Assembly (NCBI RefSeq): GCF_024713975.1
Contig: NC_091099.1
Span: forward strand, 5,644,501 to 5,708,500
DNA from: Paralichthys olivaceus
Lineage: Eukaryota; Chordata; Actinopteri; Pleuronectiformes; Paralichthyidae
Reading direction: 5' to 3'
Length of the DNA: 64,000 nt
Shown here piece by piece: positions 49,409 to 55,594 of this stretch. Below the pieces are notes generated by a model. The model was given only the letters and a program-made list of their open reading frames with translations. It did not search any database and had not been told where the DNA came from. Within the stretch, counting starts at the first letter, position 1; each line of letters starts with the position of its first letter. Position numbers and translations under genes: made by a program.

Positions 49409-55594
<6,186 letters not shown>

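Follow-up and report, generated by a model that had tools for sequence, protein, structure and literature searches.

The in-frame TGA near the end of selenoo in Paralichthys olivaceus is almost certainly a selenocysteine (Sec) codon in a fish SELENOO orthologue, and not a stop. The gene lies within the 64,000-nucleotide stretch of contig NC_091099.1 that we analysed (hereafter the window). We read the TGA as a Sec codon because it is conserved in a second gene copy on contig C23, a SECIS-like stem lies downstream and the genome carries a tRNA-Sec gene. The reading is correct but ordinary, as vertebrate SelO is already a known selenoprotein. The less ordinary points are the contrast among three SelO copies in one genome and a SECIS-like stem without an apical AA in the C23 copy.

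Reading frame and gene model

Nine exons, joined at boundaries read in the sequence and with GT...AG at all eight introns, give a frame of 2082 nt that encodes 693 residues plus a stop (Table 1). Codon 691 is the only in-frame TGA, no other internal stop occurs, and the protein ends CVTUSS. Positions 55583-55594 of the window read TGATCTTCGTAG, that is, TGA (55583-55585), TCT, TCG and TAG (55592-55594), with Cys-Val-Thr directly 5' of the TGA and a second stop, TAA, directly 3' of the TAG. The in-frame TGA in the CxxU-Ser-Ser ending of selenoo is the third codon from the end. The preliminary description had placed a TGA in frame near the selenoo end, within CVT-TGA-Ser-Ser-TAG, and this was exact. 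It had also recognized the conserved ending of selenoprotein O, rightly so, as the CVTUSS of the window copy is identical to the C-terminus of human SELO (Cys664/Sec667) given in the available text of PMC3281104 and PMC3994087.

The remainder of the protein agrees with this identity. The Pfam SelO family (PF02696) matches residues 70-626 (E 1.3e-116, profile positions 17-464 of 466), and a PDB search matched four distinct SelO sequences, the best being 6eac (E 1.1e-106). Arg occurs five times among the first 28 residues, and Lys, Asp and Glu are absent from them, a composition that resembles a mitochondrial leader and suggests such a role.

Table 1. Positions of the features discussed. Coordinates are those of the window, except for loci L009 (C23 copy) and L010 (C17 copy).
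Feature	Position	Strand	Basis
selenoo exon 1, from start codon	49396..49949	+	gene model
selenoo exon 2	50225..50428	+	gene model
selenoo exon 3	50517..50694	+	gene model
selenoo exon 4	51229..51359	+	gene model
selenoo exon 5	52144..52421	+	gene model
Cys363 codon, activation-loop site	52163..52165	+	alignment with bacterial SelO (E. coli Cys272); counted from exons
selenoo exon 6	52556..52724	+	gene model
selenoo exon 7	54031..54216	+	gene model
selenoo exon 8	54478..54634	+	gene model
selenoo exon 9, coding part, to CVTUSS-stop	55370..55594	+	gene model
Cys688 codon, CxxU-motif Cys	55574..55576	+	counted from gene model
Probable selenocysteine TGA, codon 691	55583..55585	+	frame, gene model, C23 comparison
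Ser-Ser-TAG, reading-frame end	55586..55594	+	sequence read in frame
SECIS-like element, RF00031, 27.5 bits, below gathering score	56193..56258	+	Rfam
Putative SECIS core: ATGA, 9-bp helix, apical AA, short upper stem, TGAT	56202..56248	+	Rfam match, pattern
AATAAA	56855..56860	+	sole AATAAA or ATTAAA within 55595-57600
SECIS-like stem, C23 3' UTR	L009 2431-2477	-	eye and pattern
C17 SelO homologue tail KVSCSS	L010 2780-2821	-	sequence read in frame

Conservation of the tail in a second copy

A TGA close to a TAG means little by itself, given chance, and it is homology that decides. A SelO search of the same genome (588 Mb, 25 contigs) gave 11 exon-level matches, which fall at three places: C7 (the window), C23 and C17. 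Joining the exons of the C23 copy yields a frame of 633 residues with CITUSS at its end and the TGA at the same codon. Its tail reads Cys-Ile-Thr-TGA-TCC-TCA-TAG, and both Ser codons differ from those of the window at the silent third base only. The two proteins are identical at 398 of 632 aligned positions.

These data bear on the simplest alternative, that the TGA is an ordinary stop with Ser-Ser-TAG behind it by chance. TGA is a stop in the standard code, and termination here would remove only three residues and keep the folded domain, as the Pfam match ends at residue 626. However, if the TGA were a true stop, the Ser and TAG codons behind it would be untranslated and would therefore not need to be conserved, yet C23 retains the TGA, both Ser codons and the TAG with silent third-base changes only. 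The sequence after the TAG is, by contrast, unlike: between the TAG and the SECIS-like stem, window and C23 DNA are no more alike than shuffling would produce (22 of 200 shuffles equal or exceed their score), and 19 of the first 60 bases after the TAG agree without gaps. Fourfold-degenerate third positions agree in 56 of 123 shared codons against 34 expected from within-residue shuffling. Silent sites of the two copies have thus diverged considerably without reaching full saturation, so some shared sequence is to be expected anyway, which counts against the argument from conservation. Also at odds with an ordinary stop are a CSS at the same place in both the C17 copy and the bacterial chain 6iii, and the SECIS-like element downstream. 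Taken with these observations, an ordinary stop is very improbable.

SECIS-like element and proposed decoding of UGA

A putative SECIS with the core motifs, the SELENOO trait expected in a 3' UTR, is present downstream, at a score below the gathering score. Rfam run at the gathering score, which is 35 for SECIS_1 (RF00031), listed no match in the window, and this counts against the Sec reading. When E-values were used instead, SECIS_1 matched at full length at 56193-56258 with 27.5 bits (E 0.013 for 2363 bases searched with 4227 families); divided by the family count, E is about 3e-6 for a single family expected beforehand. Over the whole 64 kb, the element comes second in bit score and third in E-value (0.36) among the 18 matches listed, of which it is the only SECIS match. 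Its core opens with ATGA and N, followed by a 9-bp helix; the loop begins with AA, then comes an upper stem (GTC/GAC), and the returning helix leads to TGAT. The stem lies 616 bases 3' of the TGA and 606 bases 5' of the AATAAA at 56855.

We also searched with a pattern (ATGA or GTGA, 9-bp helix, AA, NGAN) that was written after the candidate had been seen. With all nine pairs required, neither strand of the window has a site other than the candidate; allowing eight of nine adds one further site, on the minus strand, which counts against the element. Among 2000 dinucleotide-shuffled UTRs (55595-56880), a 9/9 site arose in 3 and a site with at least eight pairs in 40; these numbers rise to 9 and 138 when AA is not demanded. 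Fold stability did not exceed that of shuffles for the window element (z 0.13 and -0.58 at two lengths) or for the C23 stem (z -1.01); this counts against a SECIS, and stability is not taken as support for one.

The C23 stem has a full 9-bp helix and carries GACC at the apical loop, against AACA in the window, and so has no AA. All 12 stem pairs are kept between the two copies, five of them despite base changes, which affect both sides in two, and pairing falls to 8-42% when the partner is slid by one to three columns. The shuffle control for covariation is weak with two sequences only, and 117 of 500 shuffles do as well as the real pair, which counts against the stem, as does the lack of a SECIS match in an Rfam search of the C23 locus at E up to 10. 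The window element has its AA in place of the CC of mammalian SelO (PMC3316567). In the available text of that paper, CC replaces AA only in mammalian SelO and placental SelM.

A second alternative supposes a selenoprotein gene in decay or conversion, with a weak SECIS and a TGA that is now mostly read as a stop. The score below the gathering score and the Cys form on C17 would suit such a history. The intact 693-codon frame, the perfect core helix with its ATGA/TGAT and AA, and the retention of the stem in C23 all speak against it, and we regard decay or conversion as highly unlikely.

The genome also appears equipped for Sec decoding. A search with a tRNA-Sec model gave 17 matches, two over the cut-off, on C11 (76.8 bits) and C8 (47 bits); the same model matched in all 14 control genomes and exceeded the cut-off in five. 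ARAGORN calls the C11 match tRNA-SeC with anticodon TCA. The C8 match and the next best, on C5, are both called tRNA-Ser. For the Sec elongation factor (TIGR00475), none of 22 matches exceeded the cut-off. We therefore find that frame, homology, the downstream SECIS-like element and the tRNA-Sec gene agree with the earlier proposal that this TGA is a Sec codon, and Sec would be inserted here by analogy with known SelO.

SelO copies, predicted chemistry and neighbouring genes

We propose that the window gene is the fish orthologue of SELENOO, predicted from its relatives to be a mitochondrial AMP transferase with a pseudokinase fold. tRNA-Sec would decode the UGA at codon 691 under the direction of a type-2-like SECIS in the 3' UTR, 616 bases downstream, and translation would end at the TAG two codons past Sec691. 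The C-terminal CxxU (Cys688, Sec691) would form a redox tail. By homology, Sec691 would occupy the site of the bacterial C-terminal Cys that bonds a Cys of the activation loop, the presumed partner here being Cys363, and would sit in the Sec-Ser-Ser tail required for NAD+ hydrolysis.

Published work, as far as the available portions of each source go, describes this chemistry in relatives. A Cys272-Cys476 disulfide controls AMP transfer in E. coli SelO, and in higher eukaryotes Sec takes the place of Cys476 (PMC7278666, PMC8097203). 75Se is incorporated into human SelO, which reacts through its CxxU (PMC3994087). According to a 2026 commentary, a newly discovered NADase activity of SelO requires the Sec-Ser-Ser tail, and residue 667 is dispensable for AMP transfer (PMC13391479). 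The 75Se labelling and the NADase tail suggest that the Sec would be functional in the window gene, as first described. The same description had warned that stopping at the TGA would cost the Sec and the last two residues, and three codons, TGA-Ser-Ser, do precede the TAG; the three residues lost would be the SelO tail that serves redox and NADase functions. A product cut at the TGA would probably keep AMP transfer and lose the tail chemistry. That annotation pipelines cut proteins short at C-terminal Sec codons has already been published, together with a tool for this problem (the available text of PMC12822975), with RefSeq correct in 77% and SELENOO mishandled to a lesser degree than others.

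The bacterial SelO/YdiU proteins (E. coli type) belong to the same family but have Cys and not Sec. In the alignment with 6iii, Cys363 of the window faces the Cys of FICN, and Sec691 faces the Cys of CSS; the end segment alone scores -0.6 bits, which is not significant, and is placed only by lying at both termini. The 6iii tail, EVSCSS, is without the first Cys of CxxU. The two Cys of 6iii, residues 276 and 480 of the chain, would be E. coli 272 and 476 if the chain has a four-residue tag.

Among the three copies, the activation-loop Cys is unique to that of the window (FICNASD). The loop reads FTSNASD in C23 (L009 4566-4568, minus strand) and FIPNTSD in C17 (L010 4406-4408, minus strand). The C17 copy has Cys at the Sec site and a TGA stop directly after Ser-Ser; Rfam found no SECIS match at its locus, and the pattern, with or without AA, found no SECIS-like stem in the 900 bases 3' of its stop. 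The copies combine these features in three ways: CxxU plus the loop Cys in the window, CxxU but no loop Cys in C23, and a Cys-only tail in C17, which likewise lacks the loop Cys. It is possible, but we think rather unlikely, that these are three redox types in which the loop-to-tail bond is confined to the window copy, redox-switch and tail-catalysis roles are split among the copies and C23 uses a SECIS without AA. Because they share one genome, the three contrasting copies lend themselves to a natural comparison of which SelO activities depend on Sec, the CxxU Cys or the activation-loop Cys.

Parts of this family history are already described. In the available text of PMC3316567, SelO is among 21 selenoproteins found in all 44 vertebrates surveyed, and fish duplications are described, including a Sec paralogue, SelO2, in zebrafish only. 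The C23 copy is comparable to that SelO2, as an orthology candidate only, and the window copy is the other Sec-type copy. For selenoo2 as a teleost selenoprotein, our literature search found nothing, and fish SelO2 with a SECIS only in PMC3316567. The metazoan non-Sec 'SELO2' of PMC3281104 differs from the window copy in that the latter has CxxU; the C17 copy likewise has a Cys tail, KVSCSS, and is perhaps this protein. The SelO domain and a SECIS-like element in the 3' UTR are common to vertebrate SELENOO and the window gene, and the mouse SelO SECIS is of type 2 (available text of PMC3994087).

Within the window, selenoo is flanked by pannexin-2 and the first exon of a p38-type kinase. The large pannexin-2 exon lies at 36269-37585 (PDB 8gyq, E 3.8e-215) and the first coding exon of the p38-type MAP kinase at 57561-57679 (best PDB match p38a, E 1.3e-11). 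By its position, compared with the human gene order, we take the kinase to be probably MAPK12. Exon-like open reading frames at 43328-44187 read like TRABD (SLLYLVGTAHFS), and we presume to name them TRABD-like; two fragments from this region gave no match in Pfam. Ankyrin-repeat and BTB-domain exons (Pfam) occur at 12316-12693 and 19505-19786, perhaps from the gene of one ankyrin/BTB protein.
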